Origin: Anaeromyxobacter paludicola
GTDB lineage: Bacteria > Myxococcota > Myxococcia > Myxococcales > Anaeromyxobacteraceae
NCBI RefSeq assembly: GCF_023169965.1
Contig: NZ_AP025592.1
Coordinates: 3,844,001-3,908,000, forward strand
Direction of reading: 5' to 3'
Length of the DNA: 64,000 bases
A model generated the notes under the pieces. The model was not told the DNA's origin, searched no databases, and was given only the letters and a program-made list of their open reading frames with translations. The translations under genes were made by a program, and so were the position numbers. Of this stretch, positions 55,737 to 61,647 are shown piece by piece (positions within the stretch are counted from its first letter, which is position 1; the number at the start of each line of letters is the position of its first letter).

Positions 55737-56603
55737 CTAGGGCCCTCTCGGACCCGTTTTGCTCAACGCTTCCTTCGCCCCTGCGAGCCGGATGGTCACC
55801 CACGACGGGTGGGCCCGGTTGTCGAGGTGCAGCACCTGCGGCTTGCTGCCCGTGGCGGCGAGCGCCCCGAGCACCTTCTGCAGGCGCGACAGCTTCTGCG
55901 GGAGGTCGCCCGTGCCGAGGCGGACCTCCGTGCCCTCGGCGCCGACGTAGAGCGTGACGCCCTGGTCGGCCTCGAGGTGGATCTCCGAGATGGGCGCGCC
56001 CTCGGCCAGGCCGGCGGCGGCGTAGGTCCGGGCCAGCGCCAGCGCGCCCTGGAGCTGCGGGCGCACCTCGGCCGGCCGCTGCACGAAGTCCTCGCGCGCG
56101 ATGCCGGTCACGATGGGCAGGTCGAGCCCGTCGCCCGGCGCGGCGCGCTTGAAGACGTCGCCCTCGCTCGAGACGAGGTAGAGCCCGGAGAGCTCGATGA
56201 GCGCGGCCGGCTGGTGCTCCTCGATCCGGACCTCGACGGCGGCGGGGACGCGGCGGTGCGCCTCGGCGCGCTTCACCCAGGGCACGCGGGCGAGGGCGCG
56301 CTCGAGCTGCCCGAGGTCGGCGCGCAGGAGGTTGTCGCCGCGGCGGACCGTCGCCGCCTCGGCGAGGTCCTGCTCGGAGGCGCGCTGCTGGCCGGCGAAG
56401 CGGACCTCGCGGATGCGGAGCGGCTGGCCGGCGGTGAGGAAGCGGTAGGCGCCCCGGGCGGCGCCGGCGGTGGCCGCGCAGGCGCCGAGGGCGGCGAGGC
56501 CGATCCCGGCGCGCCGCAGGCGCAGCTTCCACGAGACGGACTCCGCCGCCGCGTCTCGCCGCTTGCGGTTGCCACCCCGCGCCACACGCCAGTCCACGCC
56601 CAC
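55737..56603 (-). CDS. ftsQ: Cell division protein FtsQ
   Basis: 288 aa from GTG 56603. A basic N-terminal cytoplasmic part, one membrane helix (AGIGLAALGACAATAGAA), a POTRA domain (about 62-130; IREVRFAGQQRASEQDLAEA; VPWVKRAEAHRRVPAAVEVR) and the beta domain (about 135-265). Bitopic divisome protein linking FtsB/L. It lies 43 bases before ftsA. On the other side, instead of ddl and mur genes, an opposite-strand cytochrome module begins. Confidence 0.9.
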   Translation of the reverse strand: MGVDWRVARGGNRKRRDAAAESVSWKLRLRRAGIGLAALGACAATAGAARGAYRFLTAGQPLRIREVRFAGQQRASEQDLAEAATVRRGDNLLRADLGQLERALARVPWVKRAEAHRRVPAAVEVRIEEHQPAALIELSGLYLVSSEGDVFKRAAPGDGLDLPIVTGIAREDFVQRPAEVRPQLQGALALARTYAAAGLAEGAPISEIHLEADQGVTLYVGAEGTEVRLGTGDLPQKLSRLQKVLGALAATGSKPQVLHLDNRAHPSWVTIRLAGAKEALSKTGPRGP

Positions 56604-56831
56604 ACCGCCACTCTCGCCAGTCGCCTCGCACCGGTCCCAGGAACCCGGCGCCGCTTCCGGCCGCTATCGCCCGTCTCGCAGCATGCCCGACCGATCCGAT
56701 TTGGCAAGTATTTATCGGACGCGGGGAATGGTCCGGTCAGATGATCGGCGTCAAGGAATAACCCGTCGAGGTAACGTTCAATGTGAGTGGGTGCCCGACA
56801 CCCCACGAACACCGGACAGAGAACGATCGAA
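56604..56831. promoter_or_regulatory. Divergent control region, ftsQ / cytochrome module
   Basis: 228 bases. The part 56690-56790 is unusually AT-rich for this genome (TTGGCAAGTATTTATC, then GGCGTCAAGGAATAACCCG and GGTAACGTTCAATGTGAG). TTGGCA at 56701 and GAATAA at 56756 are possible parts of promoters, but no pair has good spacing. The region probably controls both the ftsQAZ group and the trihaem gene. Confidence 0.45.
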
Positions 56832-57164
56832 ATGACGAAGAGACTCACCCTGGCCGCCGCCCTCCTCCTGCCAGCGCTGGCATTCGCGAGACCCGGGGGA
56901 CGGCTGGCGCCGCTGCCGCGCGAGGTCGCCGTGAGCACCCACGCGCCGTTCGAGACCGGGGAGTGCGGGACCTGCCACGAGCGCGAGAACGCGAACAACC
57001 CGGGTGGCCTCGTCAAGCCGCTCAACGCGCTCTGCTACGATTGCCACGACGAGTTCAAGCAGAAGGGGGGCGCTCCCAAGGCCCACCCGGTCGCGAAGAC
57101 CACCTGCACCACCTGCCACTCGCCTCACAACTCGAAGAAGAAGAAGCTGCGCCTGGATCGATGA
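56832..57164 (+). CDS. Small trihaem c-type cytochrome
   Basis: 110 aa from ATG 56832. Signal peptide (TKRLTLAAALLLPALAFA). Three haem motifs, CGTCH, CYDCH and CTTCH, in the order G-E-C-x2-CH ... NPGG-L ... LCYDCHDEF ... HPVAK ... CTTCHSPHNSKKKKL. This order matches the first three haem sites of the decahaem protein just downstream (GDCSICH ... NPGAL ... LCFQCHEEF ... HPPAV ... CTNCHNAHNATEKKLL), so the small protein looks like one duplicated module. Predicted periplasmic electron carrier. First gene of the module inserted between ddl and ftsQ. Confidence 0.9.
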   Translation: MTKRLTLAAALLLPALAFARPGGRLAPLPREVAVSTHAPFETGECGTCHERENANNPGGLVKPLNALCYDCHDEFKQKGGAPKAHPVAKTTCTTCHSPHNSKKKKLRLDR

Positions 57165-57171
57165 TGGGGGG

Positions 57172-57199
57172 GGACGGCGCCGGGCGGGGCGCCGTGTCC
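57172..57199 (+). terminator. Hairpin after the trihaem gene
   Basis: GGACGGCGCC (57172-57181), loop GGGCGG, GGCGCC-GT-GTCC (57188-57199): a stem with a two-base bulge, 7 bases after the stop codon. It probably ends or attenuates the trihaem transcript. Confidence 0.5.
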
Positions 57200-57228
57200 G
57201 GACGGTAACGGGACGCCAGTTGGGCGAG

Positions 57229-57262
57229 ATCAAGGATCCGCCTGGCCGATCCGTCCTTTGAT
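57229..57262 (+). promoter_or_regulatory. mRNA stem-loop in the decahaem leader
   Basis: ATCAAGGATC (57229-57238) and GATCCGTCCTTTGAT (57248-57262) form a long imperfect hairpin; two alternative pairings (GGATC/GATCC or AAGG/CCTT) are possible. It lies midway between the trihaem stop and the decahaem start. Confidence 0.45.
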
Positions 57263-57296
57263 GAGCCGCTCGCCTGAGCAACCCTTGCGGGGGAAA

Positions 57297-57313
57297 TCTC
57301 CGAAAACCGGAGA
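57297..57313 (+). promoter_or_regulatory. Stem-loop that hides the decahaem ribosome-binding site
   Basis: TCTCCG-AAAAC-CGGAGA is a perfect 6-bp stem with an AAAAC loop, whose right arm contains the GGAG four bases before the ATG at 57317. Translation would require this helix to open, so decahaem synthesis may be controlled at initiation. A second ATG at 57329 has its own GGAG (57319-57322). Confidence 0.55.
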
Positions 57314-57316
57314 CCC

Positions 57317-58423
57317 ATGGAGTCCTCGATGCGTTCTCGCCACCGTGCCGTCCAACTCGCACTCGTCTCGCTGCTCCTGCCCACGCTGGCGCTCGCCGCG
57401 CCGGCCCCGGCCAAGAAGGGAGCGCCGGCGCCCAGCACCGGCACCCTGCGCACCGCCTTCGTCGGCAAGGGCGGGCCGCTGCCCCACGGCGTGAAGGTCG
57501 GGTGGTCGCACGCCGCCTACGAGAACGGCGACTGCTCCATCTGCCACGTCAACAAGGACGTGAAGAACCCGGGCGCCCTCAAGGCCTCGGTGAACGACCT
57601 CTGCTTCCAGTGCCACGAGGAGTTCAACGCCGTCATGAACCGGCAGGTGAAGCACCCGCCGGCGGTCGAGCGCTGCACCAACTGCCACAACGCGCACAAC
57701 GCGACCGAGAAGAAGCTCCTCAACGCCGACGTCTACACGCTCTGCAACGGCTGCCACACCAAGATCAAGGCGACCGCCGAGAACGCCAAGGTGAAGCACG
57801 GCGCGCTCACCTCGGGCGGCAAGTGCGTCTCCTGCCACAACCCGCACGCCGCCAACGTGGAGAAGCTGCTCGTCCAGCTGCCCTTCGACCTGTGCGTGAA
57901 CTGCCACAGCCAGGAGGGCCTGAAGGACGACAAGGGCGTGACCCTCACCAACTTCTCCAAGCTGCTCGCCGCCAACAAGGTCTGGCACGCGCCGGTCGCC
58001 AACAAGGACTGCTCGGCCTGCCACATGACCCACGGCTCGCCCAACTTCCGCCTGCTGGTCGAGGACTACCCGGCGAAGTTCTACGCGCCCTACGACCCGA
58101 AGAACTACGCGCTCTGCTTCACCTGCCACAACGACAAGGTGGCGGCGACGGCCGAGACCACCACGCTCACCAACTTCCGCGACGGCTCGCGGAACCTGCA
58201 CTTCCTGCACGTCAACAAGACCGAGCGCGGCCGCACCTGCCGCGCGTGCCACGAGGTCCACGCCTCGCCGTTCGACCACCAGATCCGCGAGAAGACGCCG
58301 TTCGGCTCCTCGGGCTGGGGCCTGAACGTCGGCTGGCAGAAGACGGCGACGGGCGGCCAGTGCGCCAAGACCTGCCACGACACCAAGCCGTACTCCAACA
58401 AGACGGTCGCAACCAAGAAGTAG
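57317..58423 (+). CDS. Decahaem c-type cytochrome (nine CXXCH plus one CXXXCH)
   Basis: 368 aa from ATG 57317 (ATG 57329 also possible). Signal peptide SRHRAVQLALVSLLLPTLALA. Nine CXXCH motifs with Cys at 73, 96, 120, 143, 170, 193, 232, 267 and 308, plus CAKTCH at 349-354, a CX3CH variant. Tandem doubled-CXXCH units (CTNCHNAHNATEKKLL...LCNGCH; CVSCHNPHAANVEKLL...LCVNCH) alternate. About 340 mature residues for ten haems is typical of periplasmic or outer-membrane multihaem carriers of metal reducers. Its third position GC is like that of the neighbours. Followed 13 bases later by a thioredoxin-fold gene. Confidence 0.92.
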   Translation: MESSMRSRHRAVQLALVSLLLPTLALAAPAPAKKGAPAPSTGTLRTAFVGKGGPLPHGVKVGWSHAAYENGDCSICHVNKDVKNPGALKASVNDLCFQCHEEFNAVMNRQVKHPPAVERCTNCHNAHNATEKKLLNADVYTLCNGCHTKIKATAENAKVKHGALTSGGKCVSCHNPHAANVEKLLVQLPFDLCVNCHSQEGLKDDKGVTLTNFSKLLAANKVWHAPVANKDCSACHMTHGSPNFRLLVEDYPAKFYAPYDPKNYALCFTCHNDKVAATAETTTLTNFRDGSRNLHFLHVNKTERGRTCRACHEVHASPFDHQIREKTPFGSSGWGLNVGWQKTATGGQCAKTCHDTKPYSNKTVATKK

Positions 58424-58436
58424 CGAGGTCCTCCGC

Positions 58437-59264
58437 GTGAACATCCGTCGTCTCCCTGTCCTGATGCTGCTGGTCGCCGGGGGGGCGACGGCACCGGAGG
58501 TCGCCCGGGCCCGGGTGGACCTGGGCGGTACCGTCGAGAACGCAGAGCTGCCCACCCTGGACGGCGGGCGAGCGCCCCTTCTCGCGAAGAAGGCGCTCGC
58601 CAACGTCCTCGTCTTCTTCCGCCCCGACCAGGAGCACTCGGTCTCGACGCTGCGCCAGCTCGTGGACTGCGAGAAGCGGTTCGAGAGCAAGCCGGTGCAC
58701 TGGGTGGCGGTGGTCTCCGACACCTACCCGCCGGACGAGGTCCGCGCGGTGGTGAAGGACGCCGGGGTCAAGATGCCGGTGGTCCGGGACGTCGGCGACG
58801 CCCTCTACGGCAAGCTGGGGATCCGCCTCCACCCGGTGGTGGGGATCGTGGACGCCAAGCAGAAGCTGGTGGCCTACGAGCCCTTCCACAAGATCGACTA
58901 CTGCGCGCTCGTGACCGCCCGGATCCAGTTCGTCCTCGGCGAGATCGACGCCCAGCAGCTCCAGGCCGTGCTCGCGCCGCCGCGCGCGACGCAGGGGGGC
59001 GACGACCAGGTCGCCCGGCGCCACGTCAAGATGGGCGAGATGATGCTCAAGTCGGGCAACACCGCCAGCGCCGAGGAGAACGCGCGCAAGGCGCTCGAGA
59101 AGGACCCGGCGCTGGCGAGCGCGCACGCGCTGCTCGGCGGGGCGCTCGCCGGGCAGGGCAAGTGCGCCGAGGCGGCCAAGGCGTTCGACGAGGCGCTCAA
59201 GCTCGAACCGCAGAACGCGGCCGCCACGGCCGGGAAGCAGAGGTGCGCCGCGGGGGCCAGGTAG
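58437..59264 (+). CDS. Exported thioredoxin-fold plus TPR protein, paralogue 1
   Basis: 275 aa from GTG 58437. Signal-like NIRRLPVLMLLVAGGATAP. Residues about 28-180 form a thioredoxin/AhpC-like fold: NVLVFFRPDQEHSVSTLRQL takes the place of the usual WCxxC segment, and GDALYGKLGIRLHPVVGIVD contains the cis-Pro-like loop. No CXXC is present. Residues about 190-265 are TPR-like (AEENARKALEKDPALASAHA; CAEAAKAFDEALKLEPQNAA). Cys at 78, 156, 243 and 270 are all conserved in the next gene. Probably a periplasmic, non-redox or Cys-disulfide-stabilised protein that scaffolds or matures the neighbouring cytochromes; role inferred. Confidence 0.78.
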   Translation: MNIRRLPVLMLLVAGGATAPEVARARVDLGGTVENAELPTLDGGRAPLLAKKALANVLVFFRPDQEHSVSTLRQLVDCEKRFESKPVHWVAVVSDTYPPDEVRAVVKDAGVKMPVVRDVGDALYGKLGIRLHPVVGIVDAKQKLVAYEPFHKIDYCALVTARIQFVLGEIDAQQLQAVLAPPRATQGGDDQVARRHVKMGEMMLKSGNTASAEENARKALEKDPALASAHALLGGALAGQGKCAEAAKAFDEALKLEPQNAAATAGKQRCAAGAR

Positions 59265-59285
59265 CCCTCGCCGGCGGCAGGATAC

Positions 59286-59320
59286 CGGGCGCGGTCGCGA
59301 AGGCCGCGCCCGTTTTCTTT
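59286..59320 (+). terminator. Rho-independent terminator
   Basis: CGGGCGCGG (59286-59294) pairs with CCGCGCCCG (59304-59312), directly followed by TTTTCTTT (59313-59320). The best classical terminator in the window, after paralogue 1, so the second paralogue must have its own promoter or rely on read-through. Confidence 0.85.
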
Positions 59321-59370
59321 GCGTGACGTCCCCGGCGCGGGAGTTCGTCGTTGCTCCCGGCCGGGGGGAT

Positions 59371-59385
59371 GCCCGAGAATCGGGC
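59371..59385. promoter_or_regulatory. Short inverted repeat before paralogue 2
   Basis: GCCCGA-GAA-TCGGGC, a perfect 6-bp dyad 22 bases before the ATG of paralogue 2. Could be an operator or an mRNA hairpin. The ribosome site AGGGAGGG follows it. Confidence 0.4.
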
Positions 59386-59407
59386 CAGAGAGGGAGGGAA
59401 CGAATCC

Positions 59408-60250
59408 ATGGCACTGCTGACTCTTCGCGACGTGCGCCGCGCCTTCATGCTGTCCGGGCTGGTGGTGGCCGCCCTGGGCTGGCCGTTCTCCAGCAGCGCC
59501 ATCGCCGAGACCGGCCACGTGATCGACGAGGTGCTGCCGAAGCTCGACGGCAGCGGCCGGGCCCCGGTGGCCAAGAAGGGCGAGGTGAGCCTCGTCTTCT
59601 TCTTCCGCCCGGACCAGGAGCACTCGAAGGAGGCGCTGCGCCAGCTGGCGCGCTGCGAGAAGGACCTCGCCGGCCGGAAGCTCCACTGGGCCGCGGTGGT
59701 CTCCGACGCCTACCCGGCCGCCGAGGTCGCGCCGATGGTCGCCGAGTCCGGCGCGGAGATGCCGGTGCTGGTGGACGAGGGCGGGAAGCTCTACGGCAAG
59801 CTCAACCTCCGCATGACCCCCGAGCTCGCCATCGCCGACAAGGCCGGCAAGGTCACCGCCTACCAGCCCTTCTCCAAGCTCGACTACTGCGCCCTCGTCG
59901 AGGCCCGCGTCCGGTTCGCGCTCGGCGAGATCGACCAGGCCGGCCTCGACAAGGTGGTCGCGCCGGCCAAGGCCACCATGCCCGGCGGCAGCGACAACGA
60001 GGCGAAGCGGCACGTCAACTACGGCAAGCTGATGCTCGGCTCGAAGTCCTGGGACAAGGCCATCGACCACGGCCGCAAGGCGGTCGAGAAGGACCCGAAG
60101 CTCGTCGCCGGCTACCTGCTGCTCGGCGACGGCCTGGCCGGGAAGGGCGACTGCGCCGAGGCGGCCAAGGTCTACGACCAGGCGCTCGCGCTCGACCCCA
60201 AGAGCGAGGCCGCCGCGAAGGGCAAGGCGGGCTGCGGGGCCGCGAAGTAG
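59408..60250 (+). CDS. Exported thioredoxin-fold plus TPR protein, paralogue 2
   Basis: 280 aa from ATG 59408 with AGGGAGGG upstream. Hydrophobic N-terminal segment (FMLSGLVVAALGWPFSSSAIA) as signal. Same architecture as paralogue 1: SLVFFFRPDQEHSKEALRQL replaces the CXXC site, and GGKLYGKLNLRMTPELAIAD follows; the TPR part (ridges KAIDHGRKAVEKDPKLVAGY; CAEAAKVYDQALALDPKSEA) ends the protein. Cys at 83, 161, 249 and 276 align with 78, 156, 243 and 270 of paralogue 1, with near-identical spacing (78, 88, 27). The shared motif FRPDQEHS is probably functional. Separated from paralogue 1 by a true terminator. Confidence 0.78.
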   Translation: MALLTLRDVRRAFMLSGLVVAALGWPFSSSAIAETGHVIDEVLPKLDGSGRAPVAKKGEVSLVFFFRPDQEHSKEALRQLARCEKDLAGRKLHWAAVVSDAYPAAEVAPMVAESGAEMPVLVDEGGKLYGKLNLRMTPELAIADKAGKVTAYQPFSKLDYCALVEARVRFALGEIDQAGLDKVVAPAKATMPGGSDNEAKRHVNYGKLMLGSKSWDKAIDHGRKAVEKDPKLVAGYLLLGDGLAGKGDCAEAAKVYDQALALDPKSEAAAKGKAGCGAAK

Positions 60251-60270
60251 CGCGGTCCGTGCGTCACCGG

Positions 60271-60296
60271 GGGCGGCCGGCGCGCGCTGGCCGCCC
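60271..60296. terminator. Bidirectional terminator hairpin
   Basis: GGGCGGCC (60271-60278), 10-base loop, GGCCGCCC (60289-60296): a perfect 8-bp stem between the convergent paralogue 2 and the 102 aa gene. Confidence 0.6.
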
Positions 60297-60304
60297 GCCG
60301 CCGC

Positions 60305-60613
60305 TCACGGCGCCGCGCCGGGGTCCGGCCCGGGCTGCAGCACCTGCGCCGGGCTCTCCATGTCGGCGAGCGCGTAGACGTCGTAGCGGGCGTAGTTGTA
60401 GACCGGCGCCAGCGCCAGGAGCCGCTCCAGCTCCTCGTTCGAGTCCACGTCGTAGATCCAGGCGCCGCCGTGCTTCCCGACCACGTGGTAGCGCTTGTCG
60501 AGCTTGCCCTGCGCCAGGATCCCCTTGGCGTAGTCGGGCATGCGCAGCACGGCCTGCACCAGCGCCGGGCTGAGGCGCGGCACGTCGAGCTCCCACATCA
60601 CCAGGAATTTCAC
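60305..60613 (-). CDS. Muconolactone-isomerase-like small protein
   Basis: 102 aa from GTG 60613. Starts VKFLVMWELDVPRLSPALVQ, then KRYHVVGKHGGAWIYDVDSNEELERLL and YNYARYDVYAL, the ferredoxin-like dimeric alpha/beta-barrel fold of the muconolactone isomerase / YCII group. In other bacteria this fold is used in catabolism and in many uncharacterised proteins; the aromatic-degradation role is not supported by the neighbours. It follows ddl on the same strand after 107 bases, and its ribosome site (AGGAGG) sits in a hairpin (60621-60646). Confidence 0.65.
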   Translation of the reverse strand: MKFLVMWELDVPRLSPALVQAVLRMPDYAKGILAQGKLDKRYHVVGKHGGAWIYDVDSNEELERLLALAPVYNYARYDVYALADMESPAQVLQPGPDPGAAP

Positions 60614-60615
60614 GC

Positions 60616-60646
60616 GTCCCTCCTCGCCGCACCCCGGCGGCGAGGA
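60616..60646 (-). promoter_or_regulatory. Stem-loop overlapping a ribosome-binding site; possible ddl terminator
   Basis: On the minus strand TCCTCGCCGC, loop CGGGGT, GCGGCGAGGA: a perfect 10-bp stem (60646 back to 60621). Its right arm contains the start of AGGAGGG, the ribosome site of the GTG at 60613. It may both end the mur-ddl transcript and keep the 102 aa gene poorly translated. Confidence 0.55.
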
Positions 60647-60720
60647 GACGTGTAAGCCGGGCGGCCCGGGCCGGCGCGCCGCAGGCGGGGGCGCGCCTCC
60701 CGGGGGAGCCCGGCCCGGCG

Positions 60721-61647
60721 TCAGGCCTTGAGCGCGGCCCCGTCCAGGAGCCGCTCGCAGAGCTCGCCGAAGTTGATGCCCAGGCCGGCGGCGATCTTGG
60801 GGACGAGCGAGGTGGCCGTCATCCCCGGGAGCGTGTTGGCCTCGAGGATGTACGGCGTGCCGTCGGCGGTCACGATGAAGTCGATGCGGGTGACCCCGCT
60901 GCAGCCGAGCGCGGCGTGGGCCTTCTCGGCCGCCTCGAGCACGCGGGTGAGGTGCAGCGGGTGGAGGCGGGCCGGGTAGTAGTAGTCGGTCGCGCCCGGC
61001 GTGTACTTGGCGGTGTAGTCGTAGAACTCGCGGGTGGGGACGATCTCGATGGCGCCGAGCGCCTTGCCGTCGAGCACCGCCACGTCCACCTCGGTGCCCT
61101 TCACGTACCGCTCCACGATGAGGTCGCCCTTGTAGCCGGCGGCGTCGCGGCAGGCGTCGCGCAGCGCGGCCGCGTCCTTCACGATGTGCACGCCGACGCT
61201 GGAGCCCTCGCCGGCCGGCTTCACCACCGCCGGGAGCCCGAAGGGCAGGTCGCCCACGCCGATGTGCTCGGCCTGGCCGCGCTGGAACACGCGGTACTCC
61301 GCCACCGGCAGGCCGTGCTCGCGGAAGAGGAGCTTCGAGAAGACCTTGTCCATGCCGAGCGCCGAGGCCAGCACGCCCGAGCCGGTGTAGGGGATGCCCA
61401 TCGACTCGAGGAGCCCCTGGATGCTGCCGTCCTCGCCCCAGCGGCCGTGGAGCGCCACGAAGGCCACGTCCACCTTCCGCTCGCGCAGGGCGCGCGCCAC
61501 CTCGAGGTCCACGTCGATGAGGTCCACGTCGTAGCCGCGGGCGCGGAGCGCCTCGGCGCAGCCCTGGCCGGTGCGCAGCGACACCTCGCGCTCGGCCGAG
61601 CGCCCGCCGTGCAGCACCGCCACCTTCTTCCCAGTCCACGTCCCCAT
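60721..61647 (-). CDS. ddl: D-alanine--D-alanine ligase
   Basis: 308 aa. ATP-grasp ligase that makes D-Ala-D-Ala for the peptidoglycan precursor. VLHGGRSAEREVSLRTG (about 11-27), ALHGRWGEDGSIQGLLESMG, KPAGEGSSVGV, DFIVTADGTPYILEANTLPG (metal-binding Glu/Asn). Length equals DdlB. It starts 1 base after murB ends. Downstream the usual ftsQ is missing because of the inserted module. Confidence 0.96.
   Translation of the reverse strand: MGTWTGKKVAVLHGGRSAEREVSLRTGQGCAEALRARGYDVDLIDVDLEVARALRERKVDVAFVALHGRWGEDGSIQGLLESMGIPYTGSGVLASALGMDKVFSKLLFREHGLPVAEYRVFQRGQAEHIGVGDLPFGLPAVVKPAGEGSSVGVHIVKDAAALRDACRDAAGYKGDLIVERYVKGTEVDVAVLDGKALGAIEIVPTREFYDYTAKYTPGATDYYYPARLHPLHLTRVLEAAEKAHAALGCSGVTRIDFIVTADGTPYILEANTLPGMTATSLVPKIAAGLGINFGELCERLLDGAALKA

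Follow-up and report, generated by a model that had tools for sequence, protein, structure and literature searches.

What function is left to a thioredoxin-like protein that has given up its active-site cysteines and is encoded directly behind a multihaem cytochrome? The question is raised by a locus of Anaeromyxobacter paludicola (NZ_AP025592.1, positions 3,844,001 to 3,908,000; this whole stretch of 64,000 nucleotides is referred to here as the window), in which genes for a trihaem and a decahaem cytochrome are followed by two genes, A and B, whose products join a thioredoxin (Trx) fold to C-terminal tetratricopeptide repeats (TPR). Factors specific to one multihaem cytochrome are poorly known, as is the way in which an MtrA-like decahaem functions in the absence of a recognised MtrB porin. 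The reading placed first here, to which we give an even chance, is that A and B are dedicated, non-thiol-catalytic periplasmic binding partners (adaptors or escorts) of the MtrA-like decahaem encoded upstream of them. The four genes are as follows.

56787..57164, + strand: trihaem c-type cytochrome, three CXXCH motifs, signal-peptide-like N-terminus (Pfam Paired_CXXCH_1, 1.6e-19; synteny)
57317..58423, + strand: decahaem cytochrome, nine CXXCH motifs and a last motif CX3CH (CAKTCH), MtrA/DmsE-like
58437..59264, + strand: Trx-TPR protein A, 275 amino acids, GTG start; N-terminal export signal, ResA-like domain without CXXC, TPR
59408..60250, + strand: Trx-TPR protein B, 280 amino acids; architecture as in A, to which it is 49% identical

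Linkage of the Trx-TPR family to the decahaem

Family members were defined by a Trx-domain match at E <= 1e-12, and decahaem presence by a match at E <= 1e-60, in a search that covered 60 relatives, the order and the phylum (195 genomes). The Trx-TPR family was found in 19 of the 195 genomes and the decahaem in 24. All 19 family genomes, which belong to three classes, carry the decahaem directly upstream of a Trx-TPR gene, so that the tie to multihaem cytochromes proposed in the first-pass annotation is strong. Because the Trx-TPR proteins are confined to decahaem genomes and encoded directly behind the decahaem, they look like dedicated helpers or partners of it. One to three Trx-TPR copies follow the decahaem, and in several genera the first and second copies fall into separate old paralogue clades; a recent duplication of A and B was rejected on this ground. 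The last copies (second or sole) at loci L038, L039, L045, L047 and L056, from several genera, have a shortened TPR part in which about 40 residues are missing.

The family is apparently undescribed. No Pfam or NCBIfam model for it was found, no NCBIfam family scoring above its cut-off with A or B, and no paper on it was found in a literature search that subscription journals lay mostly outside. To our knowledge, the domains and themes are known, and the combination, the loss of the thiols and the exclusive tie to one decahaem are new.

Fold, degenerate active site and cysteines

The replaced active site and the cysteines of the two proteins lie at these positions.

58614..58640, + strand: FFRPDQEHS, residues 60-68 of A, in place of CXXC (sequence, alignment)
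59600..59626, + strand: FFRPDQEHS, residues 65-73 of B (sequence, alignment)
58668..58670, + strand: Cys78 of A, paired by covariation with Cys156
58902..58904, + strand: Cys156 of A
59163..59165, + strand: Cys243 of A, TPR pair
59244..59246, + strand: Cys270 of A, TPR pair
59654..59656, + strand: Cys83 of B
59888..59890, + strand: Cys161 of B
60152..60154, + strand: Cys249 of B, present in 43/43 homologues
60233..60235, + strand: Cys276 of B, present in 43/43 homologues

The first domain is ResA-like, with the thiol pair lost and the site conserved. Alignment to ResA structures that carry CXXC confirms the observation, already made from the letters, that FFRPDQEHS stands in its place: the string is identical in A and B, and its QEHS aligns with the CXXC. 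The literal FRPDQEHS, for which a search of other genomes had been proposed, occurs only in the window's genus, and a single-protein pattern scan of public genomes returned the sister species and one TPR-only match and nothing else; a looser family motif, F-x-R-x-x-[Q/H/N]-[E/D]-x-S, is found beyond the genus. In 37/37 sequences the position of the first CXXC cysteine is Q, H or N, that of the second is Ser, and the motif holds no Cys; F65, R67, S73, D123, Y129, P138 and C249 (B numbering) are invariant among these 37 homologues. A relative with the Trx domain only is encoded in the same genome (L003 1459-2007; 183 amino acids), with FLRPGDEGS instead of CXXC and no TPR.

Pfam recognised TPR in the C-terminal part of A and B and gave only sub-threshold AhpC-TSA/Redoxin matches for the first part. 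Against PDB, a profile of the first domain matched the thioredoxin-family structure 3kcm at 9.5e-9 and ResA at 3.8e-7 and weaker. The AlphaFold model of B has a predicted local distance difference test score (pLDDT) of 75 overall and above 90 in the TPR; its residues 36-174 align with ResA at a Z of about 14 over 131-132 residues (VIA-align), and residues 194-280 match TPR structures. Each protein has a single N-terminal hydrophobic segment and no second one. By inspection this segment, MNIRRLPVLMLLVAGGATA in A and FMLSGLVVAALGWPFSSSAIAET in B, is an export signal and, together with the cytochrome partner, it argues for a periplasmic location. A and B thus resemble ResA and CcmG (DsbE; TlpA-like) in ResA fold, profile similarity, export and a genomic tie to c-type cytochromes; they differ from them in having [QHN][ED]xS for CXXC, cysteines at other positions, a C-terminal TPR, tandem copies and a tie to one decahaem.

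Count and alignment bear out the claim that four cysteines occupy matching positions: each protein has exactly four (78/156/243/270 in A, 83/161/249/276 in B), aligned column for column. Beyond this pair of proteins, conservation divides the cysteines in two. The TPR pair C249/C276 is universal (43/43 homologues), and the Trx-domain pair C83/C161 is not, being complete in 26 of the 43, wholly absent in 13 and mixed in 4. The column most strongly associated with C83 is C161 (0.35; the next column reaches 0.20), and on the tree the state lacking both cysteines changed about five separate times, at least three of these changes being forced by well-supported branches. This joint gain and loss of the first pair, with the complete conservation of the second, supports disulfides 83-161 and 249-276 in B and 78-156 and 243-270 in A, as the first-pass annotation had predicted for A; from sequence, we infer that these bonds form. 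Linked copies that lack C83/C161 are the first copies of L042, L043 and L044, and those of L049 and L081.

Decahaems without Trx-TPR and the possible readings

The dependence is one-sided: no genome searched has Trx-TPR without the decahaem, whereas some have the decahaem without Trx-TPR. A decahaem but no Trx-TPR gene was found in five genomes. In G003, G016 and G019 it lies between ddl and ftsQ, the site it has in the window, without an adjacent trihaem gene and without Trx-TPR (the site in G016 is split across two contigs); in G099 and G100 it stands alone at another site (the G099 contig is only 4 kb long). The possibility that these are an unrelated cytochrome was rejected, as they fall inside their own genus (98-99% support), share a one-residue insertion and lie at the same ddl-ftsQ site. 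All five keep all ten haem motifs, including the last CX3CH, and an obligatory role of Trx-TPR in maturation of the CX3CH haem was rejected because that motif persists without it.

The decahaem evolves faster where the partner is absent. The five partnerless decahaems have the five longest root-to-tip distances in the cytochrome tree (1.69-2.20 vs 1.18-1.61). Between the G003 clade and G021 the ratio of nonsynonymous to synonymous substitution rates (dN/dS) of the decahaem is 0.64, vs 0.32-0.36 for linked cytochromes at equal dS; within the G003 clade it is 0.07-0.28, so that the decahaem of this clade is still constrained by purifying selection. In the one lineage checked, the flanking division and cell-wall (dcw) genes are not accelerated: FtsQ, FtsZ, MurB and MurG of the G003 lineage are nearer to G022 than their counterparts in the next genus, with Ddl about equal, and the decahaem shows the reverse (56% to G022 for the G003 lineage vs 73-75% for the next genus). 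Normal decahaem branch lengths in G009 and G015, which have Trx-TPR and lack the adjacent trihaem gene, point to Trx-TPR rather than to the trihaem cytochrome. Parallel changes were examined in decahaem genes L063, L064, L065 and L083: positions 163, 175, 180, 188, 189, 191, 284 and 314 are conserved in linked decahaems and changed in both unlinked lineages. These positions, among them 163-191, are suggestive only, as a lead to a contact surface. A first clustering statistic for changes in the C-terminal part of the decahaem was not significant, and by eye on the alignment the length of the C-terminal tail did not separate linked from unlinked decahaems.

A dedicated non-catalytic partner would work as follows. 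After export, the ResA-derived domain, with Q-E-H-S for CXXC, would no longer carry out thiol-disulfide chemistry there and may retain its substrate groove (the invariant Arg and Ser and the cis-Pro region) for docking. A second binding surface would come from the TPR, which the Cys249-Cys276 disulfide would cross-brace, and in most copies a further disulfide, Cys83-Cys161, would lock the Trx domain. The decahaem polypeptide would then be held or escorted, and kept in its place, by one to three divergent copies, which would not catalyse the attachment of haem. The architecture, the loss of CXXC, the covariation of cysteines, the strict linkage and the faster evolution of the unpartnered decahaem are computed. 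Several points weigh against this reading. Physical binding of A and B to the decahaem, in its apo or mature form, is something we infer; the acceleration rests on two to three independent losses, and the amino-acid composition of the G003 clade is biased; and the parallel changes have p = 0.003 at a conservation threshold of 94% but p = 0.09 when full conservation is required, and one linked control also overlaps G100 in its decahaem changes. There are, too, paralogues away from cytochromes (L052-L055, L058, L059, L078 and L079). Homologues scattered without cytochromes had been named as what would speak against the association, and those found are only extra paralogues in genomes that also hold a linked copy; C83/C161 are missing from six of the eight.

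A maturation or structural role, as first proposed, is compatible with the data; what is disfavoured is a strictly required maturation factor: partnerless decahaems with ten motifs, the absence of a recognised haem lyase gene from the Trx-TPR/decahaem clusters and the location of assembly proteins elsewhere all argue against it. An apocytochrome chaperone ranks next as a tentative reading, possible although we doubt it. A and B would bind unfolded decahaem, as CcmI, NrfG and SirG bind their clients, and hand it to the general synthetase, perhaps for the sake of CX3CH. The ResA/CcmG fold does belong to cytochrome c maturation, the decahaems aligned have the unusual CX3CH site, the TPR proteins CcmI and NrfG bind the C-termini of apocytochromes (PMC3884852), and SirG is a dedicated chaperone encoded beside its own cytochrome (PMC6976685). 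Like NrfG and SirG, A and B are exported TPR proteins encoded beside a multihaem cytochrome gene; unlike CcmI, NrfG and SirG, they have no transmembrane helix after the signal and carry an added pseudo-ResA domain, and they score 18.6 and 11.7 bits with the CcmH_CycH TPR model PF23914, below its cut-off of 42. The last CX3CH persists in the partnerless decahaems, both in the three aligned and in those of G099 and G100. The clusters further differ from nrf and sir in that no haem lyase partner gene was recognised beside Trx-TPR, and in 9/9 genomes tested the genes for ResB and for cytochrome-c-assembly proteins lie elsewhere.

The remaining readings concern what else the two domains might do. 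One TPR of the family stands in an unusual context in G155:

L080 10072-12183: Ser/Thr kinase of 704 amino acids with a hydrophobic segment and a C-terminal family TPR that has both cysteines

The order of this cluster is decahaem, Trx-TPR, the kinase-TPR gene and a second decahaem, and the kinase TPR scores 75.7 bits with the family TPR profile, within the range of true members, where the best single domain of the other TPR proteins examined reached 48.8 bits. Finding the same module fused to a transmembrane kinase among decahaem genes suggests that the TPR is a module which can be carried from protein to protein and which reads something adjacent to the decahaem. It would be rather bold, and we think it improbable, to regard the Trx-TPR proteins as non-haem subunits of a new MtrA-like conduit that serve as docking scaffolds, with the TPR of one lineage wired to a kinase that reads the state of the decahaem. 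It is unlikely that Cys83-Cys161 is a non-canonical reactive disulfide, as in a CnoX-like chaperedoxin or a redox sensor. In the model Cys83 lies in the helix after the former active site, and CnoX (YbbN) likewise combines an N-terminal Trx fold without CXXC with a C-terminal TPR and has cysteine outside the motif; but the pair is gained or lost jointly, as a structural disulfide would be, no homologue lacks the TPR pair, and C83/C161 are missing altogether from some linked copies, which makes a CnoX-like role less likely. CnoX, as described, is also set apart: it is cytoplasmic, works with DnaK and GroEL and has SXXC or CXXC, whereas A and B are predicted to be exported, have no motif cysteine and are linked to a cytochrome. 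It was not among the structure matches listed, which does not exclude a likeness. Sensing, in which the TPR/Trx module would read the presence or state of the decahaem and regulate respiration, with the G155 fusion as its direct form, draws on a kinase-transmembrane-TPR gene in a cluster with two decahaems and Trx-TPR; we judge it quite unlikely, given that the fusion is seen in one genome only and that no signalling gene was noted beside linked copies elsewhere. Very little probability attaches to mere passenger genes, an inherited block with no functional dependence: the block does sit at one inherited place (ddl-ftsQ) in one family, but in other families and classes the genes stay linked although the sites are unrelated (L045, L049, L077, L080 and L081), and decahaem divergence varies with the presence of the partner.

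The family presents a clear case in which a thioredoxin fold of cytochrome maturation gave up its active cysteines and kept its genomic bond to a cytochrome. The pair is defined, its cysteines are marked, genomes that have or lack the partner form a natural series, and the cytochrome has candidate contact residues; all this makes the idea of a dedicated cytochrome partner directly testable.

The cytochromes and the genomic setting of the block

Other features around the two genes are listed here.

55737..56603, - strand: ftsQ (dcw cluster), left flank of the insertion site
59286..59312, + strand: intrinsic-terminator-like hairpin, 11 bp, T-rich tail, between A and B
60264-60632, - strand: small open reading frame, about 102-122 amino acids, between B and ddl
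60721..61647, - strand: ddl (dcw cluster), right flank of the insertion site

The cytochrome block interrupts the dcw cluster of the window (55737-61647): it stands between ddl and ftsQ, which are named here after their place in the dcw gene order, and runs in the opposite direction. Most members of one family have inherited the block at this ddl-ftsQ site; in G015, G030 and distant genomes it lies elsewhere. The site holds unrelated genes in G008 and G013, and ddl and ftsQ are adjacent in G006, G011, G015, G018 and G030. The small open reading frame was not called at the corresponding place in the sister species. The hairpin between A and B (fold z = -3.6) has a counterpart in the sister species (L006 6282-6306), at the corresponding place but with a stem of another sequence. 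Tandem copies of other genera lie -1 to 190 nt apart, and no hairpin of this kind stands between them. The true terminator described earlier was thus seen only in the window's genus, and separate regulation of the second copy, which had been drawn from it, is at most a habit of that genus. A promoter scan gave nothing above chance, the consensus used being that of sigma-70 only and uninformative here, and a plasmid search gave no match.

The trihaem gene, the upstream gene of the cluster, is absent beside the decahaem in some relatives. The decahaem resembles MtrA and DmsE in its ten haem motifs and paired CXXCH, and is unlike them in the last motif CX3CH, in falling below the DmsE and GSU2203 cut-offs (87.1 bits with the DmsE-family model TIGR03508, cut-off 192.2; far below that of GSU2203 too) and in the absence of an MtrB-type porin (PF11854, MtrB_PioB) from 16 of 16 genomes. 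Its AlphaFold model was unusable (pLDDT 29), and the only relative of solved structure found was 6r2q_A (55 bits), which we take to be MtrA of the MtrCAB complex. In G030 alone (L049 8088-15038), a 557-amino-acid gene, without a Pfam match and barrel-like by inspection, lies with genes for a protein with 14 CXXCH (CX4CH/CXXCH), a protein with 10 CXXCH, the decahaem and Trx-TPR; this is possibly a new porin-cytochrome cluster.
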